A DNA stretch of 53,374 nucleotides from the IMG/VR virus record IMGVR_UViG_3300002835_000257, positions 1-53,374 of that record; one strand, written 5' to 3'. Below the pieces are notes generated by a model. The model did not search any database, was not told where the DNA came from, and saw nothing but the letters and a program-made list of their open reading frames with translations. The position numbers and the translations under genes are program-made. Each line of letters starts with the position of its first letter. Positions within the stretch are counted from its first letter, which is position 1. The stretch is from a virus. Shown here piece after piece: positions 5,059 to 45,552 of the stretch.

Positions 5059-5358
5059 ATGAGCGAAATTAAAGAGTTTGTGATTAGGGATGAAGATTGG
5101 GCTACCGACCTACAAAATGGTTTGGAAGGCTACATGATGGCTTTGTACGACTCCGTGGATGAGGAGAACTCTGAAGTGGAGACTGAAAGCGGTCTACCGT
5201 TTTGTGGATGCAACGTATGTGAGGCAAGAGAAATTTTGACTTTCATTGTGCCACGAGCAATCAAAGGCTACCTTGATGAGAAGGTCGGATTCGAAGATGC
5301 ACCAGAAGGGTTTGTAGGAAAGCTGGCTAAAGTGCCAAGCAACCTAAAACACGATTAA
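5059..5358 (+). CDS. Conserved acidic protein with CGCNVC motif (ComFB-like?)
   Basis: The 99-residue acidic product contains a C-x-C-x-x-C cluster (FCGCNVCEARE) near residue 53, followed by an amphipathic helix ('ILTFIVPRAIKGYLDE'). The layout of a short Cys cluster before a helix recalls late-competence ComFB-like proteins, but the match is weak. It is the only plus-strand gene between minus-strand units and has its own leaderless-type promoter. It overlaps the antiporter gene tail-to-tail by 4 bases. Confidence 0.65.
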   Translation: MSEIKEFVIRDEDWATDLQNGLEGYMMALYDSVDEENSEVETESGLPFCGCNVCEAREILTFIVPRAIKGYLDEKVGFEDAPEGFVGKLAKVPSNLKHD

Positions 5359-6536
5359 GCTTTTAAAAGCTTTCTGGCTATCGGTATCGTCACCATCGTA
5401 CTGAGTACAGCCATAAGCAAGAGAGCTGTAAACATGTCCGCTGTGATGATGCCTTTATCCAAAAGAATCGTAGCAAATATGATTTCTATAAGAGCCTTTG
5501 TCTGAAGCAAAGTGCCCATAAGTTTCCACTCGCCCTTAGGCCAACCTAGAATCTTGCTTGCCACAAAAACACCAGTAGTCTTTCCAGCAAACTGAACAGC
5601 AAACAAACCAAGAGCCAAGAGAAGAACTGCAATACCGCTTACTTCCCAACTGGTCCTTAAACCAGTTAGTAAGAAGTATGTAGGCATCATCAAAATTAAG
5701 ACTGTGTTTTTGAAGACCTCGAGTTGCTTTTCTTCAAACCACTCCTTCTTCATTACTGCACCAGCCATAAAGCCACCTACGATGTAGTGCAATCCTGACC
5801 AGTCTGCAGCAAGAGCAACTGCAATAGTCCAAACAATTGTTATGTACCAGATGTCTTGTTTGTTTTTAAGAGTCTTTACTAATGCGTTTAAGCCGTAGGC
5901 TGCCAAAGCAAAAATTGGAAGGAAGATTAGCTGTCGTAAAGACCTATCCCAATCCATAATGATTATGCCTAAAACAACCCAAATAAAAATATCATCTAAG
6001 CTTGCATAAGTTAGGACTCTTCTTCCTATAGGTCCATTAAAAATGCCAAGCTTTTCCATCAACAAAACCAAAATTGGTAGCGCTGTTACAGCCATGCCCA
6101 TACCCACAGCAAGAACAAACTGCCAAGTTGCTGCCTGTTCTCCTGCCCAAGGACCTCGGTCATAGATAATAAAAGCAAAGATAGAACCAAAAACTAGAGG
6201 GCCAGTTAAGGCTAGTGATGCTGTTGTGAAGGTGTCTTTCTTATTTGTAAAGGCTGCTTTTATATCTAGGTGAACTCCTGCTGACCAAACAAAAAAGATA
6301 ATGCCAAGCCACGCCACTCCACTCAAGACATTGATATTGTCTTTAGTAAATAAGTAGTTGAAGAACTCAGGGTGTAGAGAGCCAAGAACTGCTGGGCCTA
6401 GGAGAAGGCCAGAGATAATCTGAATAATTGGTAGTGGGACAAAGTTGTCAGTTTTAAAGACTTTCCAAATAATGTATGGAACAACATAAATTAGGAGAGT
6501 AGCTGCTAGGAATAGCTCGCTGAGGTTACGCAACAT
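5355..6536 (-). CDS. CPA2-family cation/proton antiporter
   Basis: The 393-residue product is almost entirely membrane-embedded, with about 11-12 hydrophobic segments. It has the family hallmarks PIIQIISGLLLGP near residue 38-50 and a conserved acidic pair in ASLDDIFIWVVLG near 180, typical of Kef/NapA-type monovalent cation:proton antiporters. Only the membrane domain is present; there is no RCK/TrkA-N regulatory domain. An intact antiporter is rare in phage genomes and would be expected to alter K+/Na+ or pH balance of the infected cell. It is transcribed alone after a terminator that ends the upstream lysis operon. An acquired host gene is likely. Confidence 0.88.
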   Translation of the reverse strand: MLRNLSELFLAATLLIYVVPYIIWKVFKTDNFVPLPIIQIISGLLLGPAVLGSLHPEFFNYLFTKDNINVLSGVAWLGIIFFVWSAGVHLDIKAAFTNKKDTFTTASLALTGPLVFGSIFAFIIYDRGPWAGEQAATWQFVLAVGMGMAVTALPILVLLMEKLGIFNGPIGRRVLTYASLDDIFIWVVLGIIIMDWDRSLRQLIFLPIFALAAYGLNALVKTLKNKQDIWYITIVWTIAVALAADWSGLHYIVGGFMAGAVMKKEWFEEKQLEVFKNTVLILMMPTYFLLTGLRTSWEVSGIAVLLLALGLFAVQFAGKTTGVFVASKILGWPKGEWKLMGTLLQTKALIEIIFATILLDKGIITADMFTALLLMAVLSTMVTIPIARKLLKA

Positions 6537-8895: not shown

Positions 8896-8896
8896 G

Positions 8897-8967
8897 CTCC
8901 CCGTCATGGATTCGAACCACGATAACCGCCTCCAAAGGGCGGCGTCTTGCCGTTAGACGAACAGGGA
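8897..8967 (-). tRNA. tRNA-Gln (anticodon TTG)
   Basis: Read on the minus strand, a 7-bp acceptor (TCCCTGT with ACGGGGA), D arm GTCT/AGAC, anticodon arm CCGCC-CTTTGGA-GGCGG and T arm CGTGG-TTCGAAT-CCATG form a full cloverleaf. The anticodon is TTG. CCA is not encoded. Confidence 0.93.
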
Positions 8968-8975
8968 TTGAAATG

Positions 8976-9050
8976 TGGAGCCCCGAGTCAGGATTGAACT
9001 GACGACCCTTCGCTTACAAGGCGAATGCTCTACCACTGAGCTATCAGGGC
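8976..9050 (-). tRNA. tRNA-Thr (anticodon TGT), CCA encoded
   Basis: On the minus strand the acceptor GCCCTGA pairs with TCGGGGC. The D arm is GCTC/GAGC, the anticodon arm TTCGC-CTTGTAA-GCGAA and the T arm GTCAG/CTGAC. The anticodon is TGT, and the 3' CCA is encoded at 8978-8976. Confidence 0.95.
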
Positions 9051-9057
9051 AGTTTAA

Positions 9058-9168
9058 CTATGCTGTAACTAATCTTCTCTTAGTTTGATCAAACTTTTTT
9101 GGATACTTCTTAAAAGCTTTTCCGTTGTTTCTTTTGTCGTTTGTAACTCTAGCTGATTTAGCTGCCAT
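9058..9168 (-). CDS. Small basic protein, 36 aa
   Basis: The product MAAKSARVTNDKRNNGKAFK... is 36 residues and about one third Lys/Arg, as in small nucleic-acid-binding proteins. Its ATG overlaps the TAA of the adenosyltransferase gene as TAATG, the overlap used by neighbouring real gene pairs, which is the main support. No family was recognised. Confidence 0.6.
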   Translation of the reverse strand: MAAKSARVTNDKRNNGKAFKKYPKKFDQTKRRLVTA

Positions 9169-9737
9169 TATCTATCCCTACCTGCTTCCCAAAGAGAATC
9201 TCCAACTGAACGGTTTTCGTATCGAGCCATAACAAAAAGAAGGTCTGACAACCTATTTAAATAACGAGCAGTCAAAAGATTTACTCCATCACCAAACTGA
9301 TGTATTGCATGCCATGTTGCTCTTTCTGCACGACGAACAACTGTACGTGCAACATGGAGATGGCTAGAACTAGAAGTTCCTGATGGAAGTACAAAAGAAC
9401 GCAGGGGGTCTAAAAATGAGTTGTAATAGTCAATCTGAGTCTCAATATAGTAAATCTGTTTCTCGGTAACTCGAAGGGCTTCAGTTGTTGGGTTTTCTAC
9501 TACAGGAGTGCACAAATCAGCACCAACATCAAACAACTCATTTTGAATACGAAGAAGAAGAGTCTTTATCTCTCGACTCTCTACATGCAACATAGCAACA
9601 CCAATAAAAGAGTTAGCCTCATCTACAGTTGCAAAAGCCTCAAGGCGTGGGTCATTCTTAGATGTACGGCTCATATCTCCGAGAGATGTGGTGCCATCAT
9701 CGCCAGTCTTGGTATAGATGCGAGTGAGGTTTACCAT
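9168..9737 (-). CDS. ATP:cob(I)alamin adenosyltransferase, PduO type
   Basis: This enzyme attaches the adenosyl group of ATP to cob(I)alamin to make adenosylcobalamin, the cofactor of class II ribonucleotide reductase. The 189-residue product has the PduO ATP-binding N-terminus IYTKTGDDGTTSLGD at about 6-20, and the helical bundle with R-x-x-x-R-R-A-E (VVRRAERATW) and 'NRLSDLLFVMARY' near the C-terminus. The start at 9737 follows AGGACA and overlaps the upstream stop as TAATG; a start 8 codons earlier is less likely. It follows a transcobalamin-like exported protein and a small membrane protein, and the phage encodes NrdJ at 24.8-26.9 kb, so it very likely supplies that enzyme. Confidence 0.93.
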   Translation of the reverse strand: MVNLTRIYTKTGDDGTTSLGDMSRTSKNDPRLEAFATVDEANSFIGVAMLHVESREIKTLLLRIQNELFDVGADLCTPVVENPTTEALRVTEKQIYYIETQIDYYNSFLDPLRSFVLPSGTSSSSHLHVARTVVRRAERATWHAIHQFGDGVNLLTARYLNRLSDLLFVMARYENRSVGDSLWEAGRDR

Positions 9738-9895
9738 TAGTGTCCTGTCATGGCACGCCACACGTGTAGCGTAATTTGATGAGAAACGTAAAGCCCTACC
9801 GCGTTAAAACCAAGTGTTACTGCAAACTGCACCCATAGAGTTGCCTTAGTCTGCTCGCCAGAAATAATGTCAGTAGGACGCGTTAGAGTTTTCAC
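9737..9895 (-). CDS. Small membrane protein in the cobalamin operon, 52 aa
   Basis: The product starts MKTLTRPTDIISGEQTKATL and has one hydrophobic segment (WVQFAVTLGFNAVGLYV, about 21-37). The GTG start overlaps the upstream stop as GTGA, and its TAA overlaps the adenosyltransferase ATG, so it is locked into the operon. It may be a membrane partner for cobalamin entry or simply a small phage membrane protein; sequence alone does not decide. Confidence 0.65.
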   Translation of the reverse strand: MKTLTRPTDIISGEQTKATLWVQFAVTLGFNAVGLYVSHQITLHVWRAMTGH

Positions 9896-17500: not shown

Positions 17501-17887
17501 ATGCCTTTACACAATCATTTGCTAGTGAACGGTTGGACACTAAATCCCCCGACTGATGAACAAGTTGTTATTGACTGGATGCGCAATCTAGTTGAATCAA
17601 TTGACATGAAGGTCATTCAAGGACCTTACGCTTCATACGTAACTGCTGAAGGTAATCGCGGGTTAACCGCAGTAGTTATGATTGAAACTTCTCACATTGC
17701 AATGCACATTTGGGACGAGGACAAGCCTTCAAAAGTCCAGTTCGATTTGTACACTTGTGGAGAGCTTCCTGTAAAGCAGGTACTAGATAATCTTGAAACT
17801 AACTTAAGTTTGTTTGACTATACCTATGTAGTTCTTGAAAGAACTGACGGATTTACTATCGAAGACTTTACAAAGCCTTCAAAGTAA
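17501..17887 (+). CDS. speD: S-adenosylmethionine decarboxylase proenzyme, SpeD class 1B-like
   Basis: SpeD makes decarboxylated SAM, the aminopropyl donor for spermidine. The 128-residue product carries the self-cleavage site ETSHIAMHIWDE (Ser64, which becomes the pyruvoyl group, and His65) and the catalytic Cys in YTCGELP (C86). The length is that of bacterial class 1B enzymes. No spermidine synthase is seen in the window, so the product would feed a host enzyme; polyamines could help neutralise packaged DNA. The ATG is preceded by GAGAGG. Confidence 0.92.
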   Translation: MPLHNHLLVNGWTLNPPTDEQVVIDWMRNLVESIDMKVIQGPYASYVTAEGNRGLTAVVMIETSHIAMHIWDEDKPSKVQFDLYTCGELPVKQVLDNLETNLSLFDYTYVVLERTDGFTIEDFTKPSK

Positions 17888-18329: not shown

Positions 18330-19271
18330 CTAATACTCGATTGGAATGAGTGATTTTAAAACTAGCTCTTTTGGCATAACAGCAATATGACTAGATACAT
18401 CATCTCTTCCAAAACTTATTAGGAAGTTATCTTTATGGGCTACCAATCCTGCTGCAAATTCAATTCCAGATTTGAAGAACTGGAAGCCTTTTGAAATCTC
18501 TAAAATACTGCCTTTGGAGTCAAACCTTACAAAGTAGTGGATGTAGTTTCGGACTGCAGCGTTTTGAGTGCTAAACCTTTCGGGGGCCCACTTAGCCTCG
18601 TTTTTAATAAAAGTTCTGTGCATAACCCCAAGGTAGGTCCCGTCTTCAAGGAGTAGCAAGTTTGTATTGCCTCTTAGTTGAGACAGCTGCTTTATATCTG
18701 AAAATAGCGAAGTCAACATGTTGTTTTGAACTGTGGAGTTTGGTCCATAGATAAAATCAAAATAAGGATTTTTATCATATGTAGTCATCCAGTTTTTTTC
18801 TGGACGCTGGGTATCCATACCTGCAAAAATCTTAAAGTCAACAAACTTAGTACATTTGGCGTCTAGCCTAGCAATAGCCATTCGTGCATAAGGAAAGTCT
18901 CCTTTATCCATTACTACGCAGGTTAAGTGCCATGCACCATCGCGGTAGAAAACCTTTGGGTCCTCGAGCCCTCGTTTAAAATCTCCAGCAATTGAGGTGT
19001 CAATTAGTCTTAGCTTTTCTAGTTTGAACTCTTTGTTGAACTCTCCCCAATAAATCTTTGAGGTTATTAGGTTGCCTTCAGTGACATGGTAAGTCCCATT
19101 GTCAAGAATGACATAGTTGCTAGAGCGTAAAGCTCCAACATACTTATTTTTATAGTTTCCAATAGAAAGATTAGTCGCGCCCCACTTTTTTTCGTTAGGG
19201 TCAATTAATCGACGAACATCGATAATATGTCCGCCTAAGTCTCTAACGTATGGAAACTTGGAAAAATCCAT
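18330..19271 (-). CDS. Five-bladed beta-propeller protein, GH130/beta-mannosyl family-like
   Basis: The 313-residue product has glycosidase propeller motifs: GLEDPKVFYRDGAWHLTC at about 96-113, 'RGNTNLLLLEDGTYLGVMHRT', 'YIHYFVRFDS', and FFKSGIEFAAGLVAHKDNFLISFGRDD near the C-terminus. These recall GH130 mannoside phosphorylases and related beta-1,2-mannosyltransferases. It likely acts on a glycan. Its start codon overlaps the halogenase stop region by 1 base, so it is in the halogenase operon. Confidence 0.68.
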   Translation of the reverse strand: MDFSKFPYVRDLGGHIIDVRRLIDPNEKKWGATNLSIGNYKNKYVGALRSSNYVILDNGTYHVTEGNLITSKIYWGEFNKEFKLEKLRLIDTSIAGDFKRGLEDPKVFYRDGAWHLTCVVMDKGDFPYARMAIARLDAKCTKFVDFKIFAGMDTQRPEKNWMTTYDKNPYFDFIYGPNSTVQNNMLTSLFSDIKQLSQLRGNTNLLLLEDGTYLGVMHRTFIKNEAKWAPERFSTQNAAVRNYIHYFVRFDSKGSILEISKGFQFFKSGIEFAAGLVAHKDNFLISFGRDDVSSHIAVMPKELVLKSLIPIEY

Positions 19272-20836
19272 TACTGTTCTTTCATTCTCTCTAGGAACTC
19301 TTTATGACTGACTGCTTCAAAATCTGCAACGGTTTGAATTAACTTTTTAAAACTAATATATCTTTGTTCCATAAAAGTTCTAGTAAAGTTGTAAAACTCA
19401 AAGAGTTTATGGTTATCGATAAACTTTTGATTTTTAATGCCAAGCAAAATATAAGACCATGAATCAATTTCAAAGAATGCGTGGTCAATAAAGTCATTAA
19501 CAATAAAAGCTCGCTTGTTGTTAATGTCTAAGTATTGCTTGGCTTTTGCTGGAGCATTCTCGTATGTGTAGTGCTTCCAGAACTCTGTATCAGTCCTACC
19601 ACTCATGTAGTGAGCGTAAATAAATCCAATAACTTCTTCCTGATTTTTACGCCACGAAGCATTGAAATCATCGATAACACCTTGGTCTTTGATATACATA
19701 AGTTCGGTGTTACCAAGAATTGCACTAGTCCAGTCAATGATAGTTGTCCAAATAGAAGTTGCTTCTAATGGCTCAACGAACCCTGCTGAAAGACCTGCAG
19801 TATAGACATTCTTCTTCCAAGGCTCTTCTAAATAACCTGGCTCCCATGAGAATGATTTCTCTCTAGGCCACTCTGGGTCATAGCCAAGGAACTCAATAAT
19901 TTCTTCTTTTGCTTGCTCGTCATCAATCATGTCGCTGTTGAAGACATAGCCACATCCGTAGCGAGACTGCAAAGGAATCATCCACATCCAACCGTATTTC
20001 ATTGCAACAGCTTCTGTGTACGGAGGAATTTCTGAATCCATATCAATAAAAAATGGCATAGCAGCATTAACTGTTAAATGTTGTTTTGCAGATATCCACT
20101 TAGTATTAAACTTCTTGCTAAAAAAAGACTTAAAGCCACTGCAGTCAAAAATAAAGTCTGTCTTTATAGACTCTCCATTTTCCAACTTTAAAGTTGTTAC
20201 ATAGCCTTCATCATCAGTTGTGTAGTCCTCTACAACCCCTTCAACGTGAATAATCCCTCTGTCTTGACCAATTTCGGATAAAGTTTTTGCCAGCTTCCTA
20301 GCATCAAAATGTAAAGAAAAAGATCCCATTTTTTCAAATTGAAGAACAGGATCTTCTGCTGAATACATTTGATTTTGAATTGTTTTAAAAGAAACTTTAT
20401 TTTGCTCACATAAGCGAGTTATAAAACACCACTCATCTTGTGACTCTTTTAACTTTGCAGCTTCCGCAAAAATTGTTGGTGTTCCTGAAACATATCTCTC
20501 AAGAGATACGTTACTAGCTGCACAGTTGCCGTACCCTACAAATGGGTGGTAGAACCAATCTGACTTTCCACCATTATTCCAATTTGTAAACTTGATTCCA
20601 TTTTTTATAGTTACGTCTGCTTCTTGAATAAGTTTTGAAATAGGAATTTGAAGTACATCTAAAAATGAAATTAACTGAGGAGTTGAACCTTCTCCTGCAC
20701 CAAGAATGCCAATCTTGTCTGACTCAATAAGAGTTACTTTTTTTGTCGGAAGAACCGTTTTTGCATAGAGAGCAACAAGCCATCCTGCGGTCCCTCCACC
20801 TAAAATAGTGACATCTTTTATATCTCGAAGGTCCAT
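19271..20836 (-). CDS. Flavin-dependent (tryptophan) halogenase
   Basis: The 521-residue product is a flavin-dependent halogenase. It has the FAD site GGGTAGW at 13-19, the catalytic-lysine segment TIKNGIKFTNWN (K78), the WxWxIP motif as GWMWMIPLQ near 290, and 'AGLSAGFVEPLEATSIW' near 365. The family uses FADH2, O2 and halide to chlorinate or brominate aromatic substrates; cyanophage relatives such as VirX1 are known to be active. A flavin reductase is not seen here. The start at 20836 overlaps the preceding gene as TAATG; an earlier ATG would overlap far into it. The substrate is unknown. Confidence 0.93.
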   Translation of the reverse strand: MDLRDIKDVTILGGGTAGWLVALYAKTVLPTKKVTLIESDKIGILGAGEGSTPQLISFLDVLQIPISKLIQEADVTIKNGIKFTNWNNGGKSDWFYHPFVGYGNCAASNVSLERYVSGTPTIFAEAAKLKESQDEWCFITRLCEQNKVSFKTIQNQMYSAEDPVLQFEKMGSFSLHFDARKLAKTLSEIGQDRGIIHVEGVVEDYTTDDEGYVTTLKLENGESIKTDFIFDCSGFKSFFSKKFNTKWISAKQHLTVNAAMPFFIDMDSEIPPYTEAVAMKYGWMWMIPLQSRYGCGYVFNSDMIDDEQAKEEIIEFLGYDPEWPREKSFSWEPGYLEEPWKKNVYTAGLSAGFVEPLEATSIWTTIIDWTSAILGNTELMYIKDQGVIDDFNASWRKNQEEVIGFIYAHYMSGRTDTEFWKHYTYENAPAKAKQYLDINNKRAFIVNDFIDHAFFEIDSWSYILLGIKNQKFIDNHKLFEFYNFTRTFMEQRYISFKKLIQTVADFEAVSHKEFLERMKEQ

Positions 20837-21540
20837 TAGTTGTACTCCTTCTTCTTCCATACGTTTTGTTTGTAATGACCAAACAATTTGGTCATACCTT
20901 GCCACATACGTTTGTCTGCTTTATCGGCTAAAGAAGGGTCAAACTCTGAGTCCCAGTTGTCACGTTTAAATGGGAAAATTTGGTAGATAGGAGTTCCAGC
21001 AGGAATGACTCCTTCAAAGTTGTCTTTGATGTAAAACGGAAGATGACCATGAGGCATAATCGCATCCGAATCATGAATACCTGTAAGAGTAGTAAACGGC
21101 AAATCAAATCTATTAAATGGATGAGTAATCAAAACGCTATAACCTGGTGGAGTTTGAATTGAGAAAGGTGTTACCCATGCATATTGAGTATGATGATGAC
21201 CTGCTGGAATTGGCAGCAATTCCATTCCATGAACGCTTCTTTCTATCATAGGAATTGGTTCAACTATCCACTCGGTTTTTAAACCATCAGGACGTCTAGT
21301 TACAAGAACATCTTGCCAAAGTGTGGCGGTATAGCCAGAAATCATTGAATCAAAAAAAGGAACGCACATCTTCATGCCAATGTTGGGGCGTAACCCTTTT
21401 TCTGTATTGATGTAACTTGCCTCTTTACCATCAATAAAACGGGGAGACTTTTTATACCAGTCAGGTACGACATTCCTAATAGGAATAGGAGTGTCTGGGT
21501 AGTCGTGGCTTTTACCGAATTTGATTAACTTTCTTCCCAT
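20836..21540 (-). CDS. Conserved phage protein, halogenase partner, paralogue of 8167-8895
   Basis: The 234-residue product shares its whole layout with the plus-strand gene at 8167: VVPDWYKKSPRFIDGK, 'CVPFFDSMISGYTATLWQDV', SIQTPPGYSVLITHPFNR, 'FEGVIPAGTPIYQIFPFKR' and the KKEYN end. Direct overlap with the halogenase start suggests a functional link, perhaps substrate binding or carrier. The function is unknown. Confidence 0.82.
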   Translation of the reverse strand: MGRKLIKFGKSHDYPDTPIPIRNVVPDWYKKSPRFIDGKEASYINTEKGLRPNIGMKMCVPFFDSMISGYTATLWQDVLVTRRPDGLKTEWIVEPIPMIERSVHGMELLPIPAGHHHTQYAWVTPFSIQTPPGYSVLITHPFNRFDLPFTTLTGIHDSDAIMPHGHLPFYIKDNFEGVIPAGTPIYQIFPFKRDNWDSEFDPSLADKADKRMWQGMTKLFGHYKQNVWKKKEYN

Positions 21541-24588: not shown

Positions 24589-24813
24589 TTAGTGGAGGGT
24601 CGCAAGCATATCTGGTCTAAAGCCAGCCCAGTGGCTATCCCCCGCTATAACGACAGGTGCTTGCTTGTAGCCTAAAGAGGAGACAAGGTTGTAAGCACTT
24701 GGGTCAGTACTAATGTCAACGGTTGTGTACTCGATGTTCTTATCATCGCAATACTTTTTGGTTGCATTGCACTGGACACAATTAGGCATTGTGTAAATAA
24801 CTACTTGACTCAT
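24589..24813 (-). CDS. nrdH: NrdH-type glutaredoxin
   Basis: The 74-residue product has the redox site MPNCVQCNATKK (C12 and C15) and the late LGYKQAPVVIAG/HWAGFRPD motif of NrdH redoxins, which reduce ribonucleotide reductase using thioredoxin reductase. Its ATG overlaps the nrdJ stop as TAATG, linking the two. A longer upstream reading would sit inside nrdJ. Confidence 0.92.
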   Translation of the reverse strand: MSQVVIYTMPNCVQCNATKKYCDDKNIEYTTVDISTDPSAYNLVSSLGYKQAPVVIAGDSHWAGFRPDMLATLH

Positions 24814-26855
24814 TACTTGTTGTTCTCCACGACTAGTTTTATCTCGCAAGCATCTGTGGTGCAGTAAGCCTCACCGATTGCGTCAGATGCAAGTCCAGCG
24901 TAAACACCATCGAAGTCAATTGGGAAAATCTTGTTAACTGAAGCCTCGTATTCTTCTTCGGTGATTTGTGTGTAAGGCATCTGTGGGTAAGTAAAGTTTC
25001 CTGATGGAAGGAATGAAACAGTCTTGAGCTGTCCGTCGTACATGTGAAGGACTGTGCCTACATGCTCGCCTTCCTTCTCGGGATCAAATGAGACTGTGAC
25101 AGATACAGAGTTATCTGACCACCAGTGTTGAGCCATTGCAGCAAGTGACATCTTTTCAAAGATGGTAACGTCTTTTTCTGCACGCTCTGCATCTGACTTG
25201 ATTGGGAAGTAAACAACTGATGTTGTCTCTGGTGACTCTGATGCAGGTTCAACTGTGTAGTTAGCCATCTTAAACAACGGAAGCATTGGGTCGTTGTTAC
25301 CAAAACGAATTGCACGGTTAAAGAACTTTCCACCTGGAGTCCAGTGAACTCCTGGTGACTCACCTGCAAGGATTGACACTGTTCCTGATGGCTTAACAGT
25401 TGTGGTCTTAATTGACTCACGAACTCCAAGCCACTCTGAGTAAACCTCGTCATACTTCTTCACAACTGCATAGCCTTCGTCCATCCACTTACGTAGAACT
25501 GGAAGACCTTTTGTATCTGCAAAGTTTGCAACACCTGACATAGATGTACCAATGCGACGGTTACGCTGCATGATTGCGTTTGTCTCTTCCCAGTGCGTTG
25601 GGAGAAGAGTTACAGTCTTGGCGTAGAGGTAAGCAAACTTGAGTGTTCGCTTGTAGTCTTCGAGTGAGTCGTGACGGTTGAGGTAAGTTTCAACGAGCGT
25701 ACACATTTCATATGATTCGAGAGACTGTTCTGCACAAGGGTTGTAACCTGCGACTCGCCAGTCTTTGTTATTGATTGGGTCTGCCAATCTTCCGTACTGA
25801 CGAGACGTATCCATCCAGATAACGCCAGGCTCACCATTGCGGACAATTCCATCAATGATTGGGTTGAAGTCAGTTCCAACTTCAACTGCGACTGAGTTGT
25901 TTGACATCCAACCCCACCCTGGATTTTCTGGGTCGTATGAGTTGCGCTCAGGGAAACGCTCTGCATTTTTGAGGTTGAGGAAGTCTTCGTCATTGATGTC
26001 ACCAATGAGGATTTCTGCGCTTCTACGAACATTGCCCGAGACTACACAACGACCAATCAAATTACCAATATCTGCAATATCTGTGCGTGTGAGCTTGCCA
26101 CCTGCACGACCAGTGAACATCTTGCGAATAACATCGTGAAGAAGGATGAGTGGGTCTGGACCAGATGCTGTTCCACCAAAGGTTGCAATAGGTGCACCGT
26201 ATGGACGAATCTCTGAGTAATCAAAAACTAGAGCCTTCTGTCCTTCCTTAAGGAAAGAGTTAATAAGTGCAACGGTTGACTCCTGCCATCCTTCACGAGT
26301 GTCAGGGATAACGTAAGCCTCTTCACCTTGTGGCTCATAAATAGTGAAGTCCTTGTCTGCACCTACTTGGTCAAAGCCAACACCAACGCCAAGCATTGAT
26401 GCTTCCATAAGAAATGCAAATGGTTTTGCTGGGTTGTTCTTTGTCATCTCTGCAGTAGAAACAAATGCGCAGTTTTGAAGTGCAGCAGAGTTCTTCTGTA
26501 CGTTGACAATGCTTGTACCCATAACCCAAAGTCCACGTCCTGGTGGAGTCCACTTCAAGTTGAATAGGCGATCAAAAAATTCTTTAGCAGAGGATTGTGC
26601 CTTTGCATCGTTCCAAGGAAGACGTTGAGACTTTGCGTAATCTTTTTGAAGTGAGTATGTACCGTTGGTTACGCGCTCGCAGACTTCAGCCCAAGTCTCT
26701 TTAGTTCCATCTTCTTTCTTACGAGAGTAAGTGCGAAGGAATGTAATTTCACCAACGGAGTTTCCACCAGCATCGCGATAACCAAATGGCGCTTTCTTCT
26801 CTTTATATGTTGCTACGAAATCTTTTGATAGTGAAAAAGAGAAAGCGATACTCAC
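24813..26855 (-). CDS. nrdJ: Adenosylcobalamin-dependent (class II) ribonucleoside-triphosphate reductase
   Basis: The enzyme converts NTPs to dNTPs with an adenosylcobalamin-generated thiyl radical, independent of oxygen. The 680-residue product is the monomeric Lactobacillus-type form: NCAFVS near residue 127, VVSGNVRRSAEIL, then NPCAEQSLESYEMCTLVETY with the catalytic Cys/Glu, 'TTTVKPSGTVSILAGESPGVHW', and a C-terminal redox pair AYCTTDACEI. The start is GTG with AGGAGAC upstream. Cofactor supply is likely aided by the phage adenosyltransferase at 9168, and re-reduction by NrdH downstream. Confidence 0.96.
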   Translation of the reverse strand: MSIAFSFSLSKDFVATYKEKKAPFGYRDAGGNSVGEITFLRTYSRKKEDGTKETWAEVCERVTNGTYSLQKDYAKSQRLPWNDAKAQSSAKEFFDRLFNLKWTPPGRGLWVMGTSIVNVQKNSAALQNCAFVSTAEMTKNNPAKPFAFLMEASMLGVGVGFDQVGADKDFTIYEPQGEEAYVIPDTREGWQESTVALINSFLKEGQKALVFDYSEIRPYGAPIATFGGTASGPDPLILLHDVIRKMFTGRAGGKLTRTDIADIGNLIGRCVVSGNVRRSAEILIGDINDEDFLNLKNAERFPERNSYDPENPGWGWMSNNSVAVEVGTDFNPIIDGIVRNGEPGVIWMDTSRQYGRLADPINNKDWRVAGYNPCAEQSLESYEMCTLVETYLNRHDSLEDYKRTLKFAYLYAKTVTLLPTHWEETNAIMQRNRRIGTSMSGVANFADTKGLPVLRKWMDEGYAVVKKYDEVYSEWLGVRESIKTTTVKPSGTVSILAGESPGVHWTPGGKFFNRAIRFGNNDPMLPLFKMANYTVEPASESPETTSVVYFPIKSDAERAEKDVTIFEKMSLAAMAQHWWSDNSVSVTVSFDPEKEGEHVGTVLHMYDGQLKTVSFLPSGNFTYPQMPYTQITEEEYEASVNKIFPIDFDGVYAGLASDAIGEAYCTTDACEIKLVVENNK

Positions 26856-38429: not shown

Positions 38430-39473
38430 ATGGAAACAACAAATCTTCGTGAAAGATACTCTTCACTTGGTGGAAGTTCTACATTGTGGAACTTGGCTGA
38501 GGAAGTAGTTGCACAGGCAGTTAGTGAAAACTCTTCAACAATTTTGTCAGCAGGTGTCACACCTGCGGGGCGTTATGTTGCTCGCGCTTCAGGTGCGGAA
38601 AGAGCGCCACGCAAAGCAAAGCACATTATCTCAGTAGATAGTATGGAAGGTGAAGAGTCTTATGTGCGACCAAATGGTGATTTGTATTTTGGTCGTAAGT
38701 GGGGCGAACACTCAGATGTGATGGCACTTCGCAAAGCAAGAGAAATGACTATGAAATCTTTCTCAGGTGAAGGTGGCTCTCCAATGTTCGGACTTATCTA
38801 TGGCGCACCGGGTTGCGGAAAAACTGCTATGGTCGAGGCAGCTTTTGGTGAAGATGTAGTCACACTTATGGGAACAGGTGACACCGAAGTTGCAGACCTT
38901 GTTGGTGGTTATGTTCAAACACCTTCAGGTGGTTTTGATTGGGTTGATGGTGGTTTGATAGATGCCGCTATAAATGGAAAAGTTTATTTCATTGACGAAA
39001 TTGGTTTGATTGACCCAAAGGTTTTGTCACTTGCTTATGGACTTATGGACGGACGACGCGAGTTAGTAGTAACTGCTAATCCAGAGCGTGGCACTATCAA
39101 GGCTCACCCAAACTTCTATGTAGTTGCCGCGACTAACCCAAATGCTCCGGGAGTTCGTTTGTCTGAAGCGTTGCTATCGCGTTTTACTATTCAAGTTGAA
39201 ATGACAACTGATTGGGCGCTCGCAAAGAAATTGGGAGTGCCGACAACTATGGTTACTGCTTCACAAAATCTTGCTAAGAAGCAAGCATCAAATGAAGTTT
39301 CTTGGTCGCCACAGATGCGAGAACTAATCGCTTTCCGAGATGTTGCGAAAACTTTTGGCAATAGTTTCGCTATCTCGAACTTGCTTGCTTCTGCCCCCGA
39401 AATAGACAGACCTGTCGTAGCAGATGTGCTGACAAGGGCTTACGGGGAAGAGGTCAAGTCAGCGAAAATCTAA
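38430..39473 (+). CDS. MoxR/CobS-like AAA+ ATPase
   Basis: The 347-residue product has Walker A GAPGCGKT (125-132), Walker B VYFIDEIG (about 190), a sensor-1 Asn in VVAATNPN and an Arg finger region LLSRFTIQVE. This places it in the MoxR/CbbQ/CobS group, which works with a VWA protein as a chaperone or chelatase motor. The VWA gene follows at 39614. No magnesium or cobalt chelatase large subunit is seen. Phages often carry CobS-like ATPases whose role is unproven. Confidence 0.88.
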   Translation: METTNLRERYSSLGGSSTLWNLAEEVVAQAVSENSSTILSAGVTPAGRYVARASGAERAPRKAKHIISVDSMEGEESYVRPNGDLYFGRKWGEHSDVMALRKAREMTMKSFSGEGGSPMFGLIYGAPGCGKTAMVEAAFGEDVVTLMGTGDTEVADLVGGYVQTPSGGFDWVDGGLIDAAINGKVYFIDEIGLIDPKVLSLAYGLMDGRRELVVTANPERGTIKAHPNFYVVAATNPNAPGVRLSEALLSRFTIQVEMTTDWALAKKLGVPTTMVTASQNLAKKQASNEVSWSPQMRELIAFRDVAKTFGNSFAISNLLASAPEIDRPVVADVLTRAYGEEVKSAKI

Positions 39474-39502
39474 CCCCTATGTCGGGTTTTCGCTGAGAGG
39501 TG

Positions 39503-39537
39503 GGGGGCGCTTCAGGGTGTCGCGCCCCCTACTTTCC
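39503..39537 (+). terminator. Strong GC hairpin GGGGGCGC/GCGCCCCC
   Basis: The 8-bp stem (39503-39510 with 39522-39529) has an 11-base loop. The following TACTTTCCC is only weakly T-rich. It lies between the MoxR-like and VWA genes. Confidence 0.5.
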
Positions 39538-39541
39538 CTAC

Positions 39542-39569
39542 TTGACACCTAAGGAAGTTTCATTATAGG
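39542..39569 (+). promoter_or_regulatory. Promoter of the VWA gene
   Basis: TTGACA (39542-39547), a 16-base spacer containing CTAAGGAAGTTTC and TATAGG (39564-39569). AAGGAACGACGAA before the ATG is a variant of the common leader. Confidence 0.65.
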
Positions 39570-39613
39570 ATTTACCTGTCTCGGACAAAGACATAAATGG
39601 AAGGAACGACGAA

Positions 39614-41383
39614 ATGGCACACATAAAGATTTCTGCCAGCAGAGCAGAGAACACTCCAACAGAGTGGCTTGGCGTAGGTCGAGCGATTGGCGAACTCACC
39701 AATGAGTGGTCTGATAGGTCAGACATAATCGCTTATGTTGGAAAAGGCGCAGGTGGAATTGCACCAGCGTGTTACAACCCAGCGCTCGCTGAAGTTGAAG
39801 TAAATACTGAAGTTGCTTTTGGTGGCGCGACTACTCCACAAATGGTTGGAGACTTGCGCGAGCGCAAGCAACAATTTGAGTTCCCTAAGGCGACAGGTGC
39901 GATTATGCACGAAGCCTTTCACGCAAAGTTTTCTATCTTCGACATACCAAAGGCTCACGAAGATTTAGCGAAAGATGAGTTTGAAGCCTTGATGCTACTT
40001 GAAGAGGGTCGCATTGAAACTCAGGGCGTTTGGCACAAACCTGACTCACAAAACTTTCTACGCAGTTGCGCGATTGAACTTGTTATTGCAGATGCGAAAG
40101 AAATGGAAGCAAGCACTTCAACTACTCAAAGTTGCGCGAGTGCGATTGGTTTGGTTTTAGCTCGCGTTGATGGTGGCATCTTAGATTTGTCAGATGTTGC
40201 AGGTATCGAAAAGCAAGTCATAGATTTCTTAGGTGAGGAAGTTGTTTCTAAGTTGCGAGCAATTTCAAAAACTTTCCGTGAAACTATTATTGACTTTCCA
40301 ACTCAGGCAGAGACTCTTCTCTATCCACTAGCAAAAGAGTGGGCAAAGATTATTCGCGACATAAAAGAAGAGAAGGGCGAGCAAGATGAGCAGATGGCTC
40401 AGGCTTTTGCTCAGGCACTTGCAGAGGCTTTAGAAGAAGCATCTGAAGAAAATGCTATTGGAGTTGCTATTGCACTTTCAGACCAGCAAGACCAAGAAGA
40501 GTCTGAGGCTGAAGCAAAAGCAAAGTCAGATGAAGCCAAAGAACAAAATGACAACAAAGATGTTGCGAAGAAAGTATTTTCAAAATCCACAACTGAAGCA
40601 GGTGGAAATACAAGTTCTCGACTTGTAGAAAGTAGAAAGCCAACTAGCGCAGAAAGAATTGCGGCAGTTACGATTTCTAAGATGTTTGAGCGAGCAAAGT
40701 ATCGTGACAGAGATGCAACAGAGATTACTTCAATTACTCCACCCGGAAGATTACGCTCTCGCGCTCTTGTTCAAAATGCGGCTATGAAGTCTCGCGGAAT
40801 TGTGCAACAAACTGAAGCGTGGCGTCGCACAGTTCGTAAGCAGACAGAGGAAACAACTCTTACAGTTGGAGTGATGGTAGACATTTCAGGTTCAATGGGT
40901 GATGCTATGAAGCCAATGGCGACAACTGCGTGGGTTATGTCTGAAGCAACTCGCAGAGTTCAGGGCAAGTGCGCTATGGTTTATTACGGCTCAGATGTTT
41001 TTCCAACTCTCAAAGCAGGTCAGCACCTAGATGAGGTTCGTATTTATTCGGCTTCAGATAGCACCGAGAAGTTTGACAAGGCTTTCAGAGCGCTTGATGG
41101 CTCACTAAATCTTCTCAATGGGAGTGGCGCTCGCCTACTTGTGATTGTTTCTGATGGACAATACACAGGTGAGGAAAAATCAAATGCTCGCAAATGGACA
41201 CGGCGTTGCGCTGAGTCAGGCGTTGCGGTCTTATGGCTTCCTTTCGACTCAGGGCATAGCGCTCGCGGATTACTTGATGAAAGGTCAGGTGTAGTTATGG
41301 CAGGTGTTCTCGACCCTGTAACGGCTTCAGTTGAAATCGGAAAGACCGCAGAGCGAGTCCTAACAAGTGTGGGTATGCGGTAG
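39614..41383 (+). CDS. VWA-domain protein with HExxH motif (CobT-like partner)
   Basis: The 589-residue product has an N-terminal domain with a zincin-type motif IMHEAFHAKF (H99, E100, H103) and a nearby EEGRIE. A Glu/Gln/Lys-rich acidic linker (about 255-330) leads to a C-terminal VWA domain with the MIDAS motif DISGSMGDAM. The order, ATPase then acidic linker plus VWA, is that of CobS/CobT and MoxR-VWA pairs. The HExxH motif suggests a metallopeptidase-like or structural zinc site. The pair may remodel host or virion complexes. Confidence 0.85.
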   Translation: MAHIKISASRAENTPTEWLGVGRAIGELTNEWSDRSDIIAYVGKGAGGIAPACYNPALAEVEVNTEVAFGGATTPQMVGDLRERKQQFEFPKATGAIMHEAFHAKFSIFDIPKAHEDLAKDEFEALMLLEEGRIETQGVWHKPDSQNFLRSCAIELVIADAKEMEASTSTTQSCASAIGLVLARVDGGILDLSDVAGIEKQVIDFLGEEVVSKLRAISKTFRETIIDFPTQAETLLYPLAKEWAKIIRDIKEEKGEQDEQMAQAFAQALAEALEEASEENAIGVAIALSDQQDQEESEAEAKAKSDEAKEQNDNKDVAKKVFSKSTTEAGGNTSSRLVESRKPTSAERIAAVTISKMFERAKYRDRDATEITSITPPGRLRSRALVQNAAMKSRGIVQQTEAWRRTVRKQTEETTLTVGVMVDISGSMGDAMKPMATTAWVMSEATRRVQGKCAMVYYGSDVFPTLKAGQHLDEVRIYSASDSTEKFDKAFRALDGSLNLLNGSGARLLVIVSDGQYTGEEKSNARKWTRRCAESGVAVLWLPFDSGHSARGLLDERSGVVMAGVLDPVTASVEIGKTAERVLTSVGMR

Positions 41384-44719: not shown

Positions 44720-44968
44720 ATGTCAGAAATAGAGATTCTTGATTCCTCAGTCCACACCAACTCAGATGGGCAAAAGTTTGTTGCCGCATTGGTTGATGAT
44801 ACAAATGATGGAAGAGTAAAACTTGTAATTATGTTTGATGAAGAGGGCTACACGGCTGTCCTTGATTTAGACACACTCATTGAGGAAGAAGATGTTTCTG
44901 CAAAGAGGCACGCTCATCTAGGAACTGAGTATGACGAACTACTTAGAGAGATGCTCTGGGATTACTGA
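44720..44968 (+). CDS. Hypothetical acidic protein, 82 aa
   Basis: The product (MSEIEILDSSVHTNSDGQKF...) is acidic with a beta-rich first half. It is coupled to the proteasome-like gene by TGATG, so the two may act together. No family was recognised. Confidence 0.7.
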   Translation: MSEIEILDSSVHTNSDGQKFVAALVDDTNDGRVKLVIMFDEEGYTAVLDLDTLIEEEDVSAKRHAHLGTEYDELLREMLWDY

Positions 44969-45552
44969 TGACAACGATGGTGGCTGTGCAAGGACCTCAT
45001 TGGTCTGTGGTTGGTTGCGACAGCCAAGTAACTGAAGATGACAGGATTTTCTACCTTCCAAAAGATAATCCAAAGATAGTAAAAAATGGGCCCTTCTTGT
45101 TAGGGGCCGCGGGTGACATGCGGGCAATTAACTTGCTTGCTTATCAGTTTAAGCCACCTGTGCCGCCTATGAATTGCTCTGGCAATAGGCTGGATAAATT
45201 CATCTCAACTAAATTTATACCTGAACTCAAAGCCTTGTTTGATGAGGTGCAGTATGGCGAGAAGGGTAATCAAGACTCAACAATTCTCTGCGTTGTGCAC
45301 GGTGCGGTCTATGAGATTGGCTCTGGTTATGACTGGGCAAGGGACGCATCTGGAATTTACGCATTTGGATCTGGCGGAGCTTACGCTCTTGGATCGCTGC
45401 ACGCTGATCTCCAGGGTAAAAAATTCTCCGTTTCTTCAGTGCGTGCTGCTGTGCGGCGCTCGCTGGAGATTGCAACAAGCCTGGAACCTAACACGGGTGG
45501 TCAGTTGTTGATTTCTGTTCAGCAAGACGAGTGTCATCAGCCAAGTCGTTAA
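44968..45552 (+). CDS. Proteasome-like Ntn hydrolase
   Basis: The 194-residue product resembles proteasome beta/HslV-type Ntn hydrolases. After Met, Thr2-Thr3 begin the mature strand (TTMVAVQG); GCDSQVTEDD follows; then 'FLLGAAGDMRAINLLAY', and a late YAFGSGGAYALGSLHA motif typical of the fold. The N-terminal Thr would be the nucleophile after Met removal. No HslU or other ATPase partner is adjacent, but the MoxR-like ATPase lies 5.5 kb upstream. Peptidase activity and target are inferred. Confidence 0.75.
   Translation: MTTMVAVQGPHWSVVGCDSQVTEDDRIFYLPKDNPKIVKNGPFLLGAAGDMRAINLLAYQFKPPVPPMNCSGNRLDKFISTKFIPELKALFDEVQYGEKGNQDSTILCVVHGAVYEIGSGYDWARDASGIYAFGSGGAYALGSLHADLQGKKFSVSSVRAAVRRSLEIATSLEPNTGGQLLISVQQDECHQPSR

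Follow-up and report, generated by a model that had tools for sequence, protein, structure and literature searches.

Proteins of the kind described here are already known, as the PHROG 1040 family and as the group I homologues BPH, AAH and PPH (PMC8665760), and proteasome-like proteins of phages occur in DSL-LC01, Pitbull and Pumpernickel. On the function of phage HslV or proteasome homologues, literature searches turned up the survey of Fuchs et al. and a single phage protein annotated as 'BPH'. The survey describes no genomic context or co-occurrence of the new proteasome homologues that hints at their function, reports that no Actinobacteria-specific phage encoding AAH was found, and finds that, proteasome beta and HslV aside, the homologues lack a propeptide (Fuchs et al. 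2021, PMC8665760). BPH, the betaproteobacterial proteasome homologue, has no known partner; it binds epoxomicin covalently and leaves standard substrates untouched (PMC5777263).

Here we describe a locus in which a gene for a protein of this kind (the phage Ntn protein) is joined to a gene for a small acidic protein (the partner). The locus lies in a 53,374-base fragment, an IMG/VR virus record, that is called the window below (Table 1). The Ntn product starts with MTTMVAVQ, and the partner has a pI of 4.1 and a net charge of −15. The stop and start codons of the two genes overlap in a way that probably couples their translation. Among close relatives, dN/dS is 0.05–0.11 for the Ntn gene and 0.06–0.18 for the partner gene, indicating that both open reading frames are under purifying selection; given these values and the numerous homologues, both are therefore real genes.

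Table 1. Features of the window and predicted catalytic residues of the phage Ntn protein
Feature	Position	Strand	Evidence
Small acidic partner protein, 82 aa, uncharacterised family	44720..44968	+	Ntn gene downstream in 76/88 distinct homologues; AF2
TGATG, partner stop and Ntn start sharing one base	44966..44970	+	Sequence; pair gaps in relatives
Proteasome-like Ntn hydrolase, 194 aa, ATG start	44968..45552	+	PHROG_1040, PDB profile, AF2/Foldseek, residue conservation
Predicted catalytic set of the Ntn protein: nucleophile Thr2 (Thr1 after Met removal), Asp18, Lys36, oxyanion Gly49, Ser135			
MoxR/CobS-like AAA+ ATPase, candidate unfoldase	38430..39473	+	Pfam AAA_5 1.2e-18
MoxR/CobS-like AAA+ ATPase, then large VWA-like protein	38430..41383		
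Cobalamin adenosyltransferase alongside ribonucleotide reductase	9168..9761, 24813..26855		Pfam E = 4e-60 (adenosyltransferase)
Tryptophan halogenase family protein	19271..20905		Pfam PF04820, E = 8e-96
S-adenosylmethionine decarboxylase (polyamine synthesis)	17501..17887		Pfam E = 2e-14
Sodium/hydrogen exchanger family membrane protein	5355..6536		Pfam E = 8e-27
Adjacent tRNA genes, Gln(TTG) and Thr(TGT)	8896..9050		

The Ntn product is, according to its predicted structure, a proteasome-fold Ntn hydrolase of group I, similar to HslV and BPH. As a single sequence it matches PHROG_1040, 'peptidase HslV family', with an E-value of 1.4e-20, and scores below the threshold of the Pfam Proteasome model (14.4 bits; cutoff 22.4). 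A profile made from 78 viral Ntn homologues retrieves BPH (4e-11), HslV (9e-8) and proteasome beta (about 1e-6) from the PDB, and the similarity to the proteasome and HslV is thus above chance. An AlphaFold2 model built with the alignment of the 78 homologues reaches a pLDDT of 91.9 and a pTM of 0.88. Searched with Foldseek, the model finds BPH first (E = 1.3e-11, TM 0.70–0.75), followed by HslV and then proteasome beta; with E-values of 1e-11 to 1e-8 for these proteins, the structural comparison that had been proposed as a check recovers the alpha-beta-beta-alpha Ntn fold.

Within this fold family, sequence scores indicate that the phage Ntn protein is not an HslV equivalog, because it falls far below the NCBIfam equivalog cutoffs (NF003964, 26.8 vs 137 bits; TIGR03692, 23.9 vs 157.75 bits). 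We also rejected a 20S beta subunit of the host PrcB type, since the best matches are BPH and HslV and the Pfam Proteasome score is under the cutoff. Archaeal and eukaryotic proteasome beta are weaker PDB profile matches than BPH and HslV, and no bacterial 20S beta subunit occurs among the best 60. The idea that the phage protein interferes with, or substitutes for, the host proteasome is neither supported nor refuted by these results; by sequence affinity the protein belongs on the HslV/BPH side.

Conservation was assessed in 82 distinct actinophage Ntn sequences and 16 more distant homologues. T2, T3, K36, G49, G134 and G136 are invariant in the actinophage set, while position 18 is D in 81 sequences and E in one, and position 135 is occupied by S in 70 sequences and by T in 12. 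D18, K36 and G49 correspond to Asp17, Lys33 and the oxyanion Gly of proteasome-like Ntn hydrolases. All 16 distant homologues retain T2, and position 3 is mostly Cys or Val in them; because T2 is kept but T3 is not, Thr2 is the likely nucleophile. Furthermore, all 82 actinophage proteins start directly with Met-Thr and nothing precedes it, so the protein lacks a propeptide. The claim that Met removal would expose a catalytic Thr thus agrees with the conservation of both Thr residues. Residue 173, aligned with an Asp of BPH, is Glu in the window protein vs Asp in 80 of the 82 sequences.

At least 528 relatives of the Ntn protein are present among the 599 IMG/VR pattern matches listed. In GenBank, homologues are found in Actinomycetia phage DSL-LC01 (46% identical, annotated as ATP-dependent protease subunit HslV), in Arthrobacter phages Pitbull and Hum25 and Microbacterium phage Pumpernickel (annotated as protease), and, more distantly, in phages of other phyla. 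Cellular homologues are carried by plasmids of Rhizobium, Sinorhizobium, Mesorhizobium, Paraburkholderia, Streptomyces and Bacillus; two scans of genome contigs found no bacterial homologues. The rhizobial, Streptomyces and Bacillus plasmid proteins are related to the phage Ntn protein with a profile-profile probability of 99.7 and form a separate clade on the tree (support 99/95 vs 100/96). We infer that the plasmid set is AAH/PPH-like.

The host of the window phage is likely an actinobacterium, as had been supposed. WhiB genes occur in 12 of the 15 related records searched, including two contigs of 136–161 kb whose Ntn proteins are 81–84% identical, and the WhiB Pfam model matches only Corynebacterium among the control genomes. 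Among GenBank phages, matches to the window VWA gene are confined to actinophages (Gordonia, Microbacterium and DSL-LC01 phages). In addition, the window ribonucleotide reductase is 78% identical to its DSL-LC01 counterpart, and these three lines of evidence together point to actinobacterial hosts. Homologues of this reductase in some other phages are annotated as class II (B12-dependent). A tryptophan halogenase is likewise present in DSL-LC01 (DSL-LC01 paper).

The element of the locus that looks new is the partner family. The 82-aa sequence has no match in Pfam, PHROGs, NCBIfam or the PDB, and no homologue in 50,697 GenBank phage records or 72,556 plasmid records. Its AlphaFold2 model (pLDDT 87.6) has a beta4-alpha fold composed of four strands and helices, for which the best PDB match is not significant (E 0.19) and the matches to viral models are weak (A0A6J5Q910, E 0.017). 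In an alignment of 58 sequences the invariant residues include H12, N14, K34, F39 and W80, and the C-terminus carries a conserved LR..LW[DE] tail. The upstream genes that overlap the protease gene in the Pitbull, Tunturi_5 and R. etli homologues were considered as counterparts of the partner and are unrelated to it.

The partner gene is closely associated with the Ntn gene. An Ntn gene lies downstream of 76 of the 88 distinct partner sequences; 62 of these 76 distinct pairs are separated by −4 to +67 nt and the others by 456–1606 nt, and both genes are on one strand at all 90 loci tallied in two scans. Together with the overlapping codons, this association upholds the coupling to a small acidic protein that the original prediction had proposed. 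Across 29 Ntn loci that are non-redundant at 80%, the partner is the most persistent of nine neighbour families tested (23 loci, 19 adjacent), followed by an HTH gene (19, none adjacent), a 74-aa gene (12, none), a KOW-like gene (10, six adjacent) and WhiB (six, three adjacent). Three loci (L045, L053 and L086) contain none of the nine families but the partner.

The pairing is not obligate. All 55 partners of a first scan were accompanied by Ntn, yet wider scans revealed 12 distinct partners, from two lineages, whose contigs lack Ntn altogether. Conversely, partner-less Ntn proteins form one clade on the Ntn tree (13 entries), which includes DSL-LC01, in whose complete genome no partner homologue was found; neither protein therefore strictly needs the other. 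One further locus (L043) is only apparently partner-less, because its contig starts within the partner gene. In partner-less phages, and in lineages whose partner is about 1 kb away, the gene directly upstream of Ntn encodes a 113-aa protein of SH3/KOW-like appearance (L016:7634–7975, L074, L078, L237 and L238); it is a possible alternative partner of Ntn.

We further compared the partner C-terminus between phages with and without Ntn. An aromatic residue at the position of W80 is present in all 76 sequences accompanied by Ntn vs 2 of the 12 without it (57/57 vs 0/4 in a first look). A group of actinophage contigs (L198, L204, L206, L207 and L210–L219) keeps the partner in the same gene block, lacks Ntn and has also lost the LW[DE] tail, and two other contigs (L247, 127 kb, and L250) have an intact Trp and no Ntn anywhere. 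On the tree, a correlated loss of Trp80 and Ntn amounts to one event with L247/L250 as counter-example, and is not significant; of two well-supported independent comparisons, one agrees and one is without difference. The sequence correlation suggests, but does not show, that the partner C-terminus is a docking tail.

A MoxR/CobS-like AAA+ ATPase is encoded 5.5 kb upstream of the Ntn gene. We rejected it as a dedicated unfoldase of Ntn because the ATPase is also present in four of the five Ntn-less contigs searched. No HslU was recognised among the part of the open reading frames scanned in the window, itself a fragment.

We propose, with a probability of roughly 0.55, that the locus encodes a ring-forming phage Thr peptidase, akin to HslV and BPH, together with a small regulator dedicated to it. 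The model builds on the predicted fold, the conserved catalytic residues, the missing propeptide and the gene pairing. In this model, Met removal would leave Thr2 as the N-terminal nucleophile, activated by Lys36 and Asp18, and the Ntn subunits would form a ring with the active sites inside. Production of the enzyme would fall in the non-structural phase of infection and be coupled to that of the acidic partner, whose conserved C-terminal aromatic tail may bind the ring directly; the bound partner would then control substrate delivery or access in the manner of a regulator, with no dedicated AAA+ unfoldase. More specifically, and as a tentative suggestion with somewhat less than even chances, the partner could be a dedicated non-ATPase regulator (an adaptor, cap or activator) that docks its tail as HbYX or HslU tails do. 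Against an active peptidase with a regulator counts the fact that BPH, the closest solved relative, showed no peptidase activity (PMC5777263). The partner-less Ntn clade, the two Ntn-less partner lineages, the single event behind the W80 correlation and Glu173 of the window protein also speak against it.

The same peptidase might instead be held in check by the partner as an inhibitor or antitoxin-like guard, keeping the protease off until a given stage of infection. A small acidic protein placed before an enzyme, with overlapping stop and start codons and strong pairing, does resemble inhibitor–enzyme operons. However, Ntn-less phages retain the partner, an entire Ntn clade does without it, and PADLOC gave no match, making a guard unlikely.

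That clade and the two Ntn-less partner lineages would equally suit a stand-alone peptidase that acts on unfolded host or phage proteins and recycles amino acids, with the partner being merely a neighbour from a conserved block of early genes; in some lineages the partner does sit in a conserved block of small genes. We judge this unlikely too, given that the partner clearly exceeds every other neighbour in persistence and closeness at the 29 non-redundant loci, and is retained at loci that have none of the eight other block genes tested.

Functions vary within the proteasome-like family, as connectase illustrates (PMC8665760), and BPH is inert on standard peptides (PMC5777263). The Ntn protein could accordingly be a non-peptidase, for example a ligase or transpeptidase, for which the highly conserved, abutting partner would serve as substrate or product carrier. 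The predicted secondary structure, however, has no apparent S3/S4 helical insertion of the kind specific to connectase, and the protein as a whole takes the form of the compact group I core, so a ligase is improbable. Finally, phages commonly have their own maturation protease, and in DSL-LC01 about 6 kb separate the Ntn gene from the terminase gene that follows it, but a role as capsid maturation (prohead) protease is highly improbable, because DSL-LC01 has three separate annotated capsid maturation protease genes beside its major capsid gene, and in addition Ntn sits among small non-structural genes and related phages lack it.

A group I homologue is present in hundreds of viral contigs; those examined are largely of the freshwater actinophage type, and in most of them it is accompanied by one uncharacterised small protein. 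The 82-aa protein is thus a concrete candidate partner for enzymes without assigned activity or substrates, and the locus may offer phages a way to control the turnover of proteins in bacteria that abound in fresh water. If the partner is indeed a regulator, no earlier genetic partner would be known for any group I proteasome homologue apart from HslV, and the apparent inertness of relatives such as BPH on their own would have a possible explanation.

Compared with known systems, the phage Ntn protein shares with HslV the fold, the catalytic Thr and the GSGG motif, but its equivalog score is far under the cutoff. The PHROG_1040 relatives of DSL-LC01 (WJZ48484.1) and Pitbull (gp77) have the same Thr start and motifs; unlike the window phage, they are without a homologue of the 82-aa partner. 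BPH (PDB 5OVS/5OVU), the best fold and profile match, has the same Thr1/Asp17/Lys/Gly arrangement and, like the phage protein, apparently no AAA+ partner, whereas identity is about 16–20% and no small protein partner is known for BPH. AAH and PPH (Fuchs, Alva and Lupas 2021, PMC8665760) are, like the window protein, compact group I forms in phages. The phage Ntn protein differs from the AAH/PPH-like plasmid set in its oxyanion loop, which reads GAAGDxR vs GFTSSFR, and in its N-terminal start, which is Thr-Thr vs Thr-Cys or Thr-Val.
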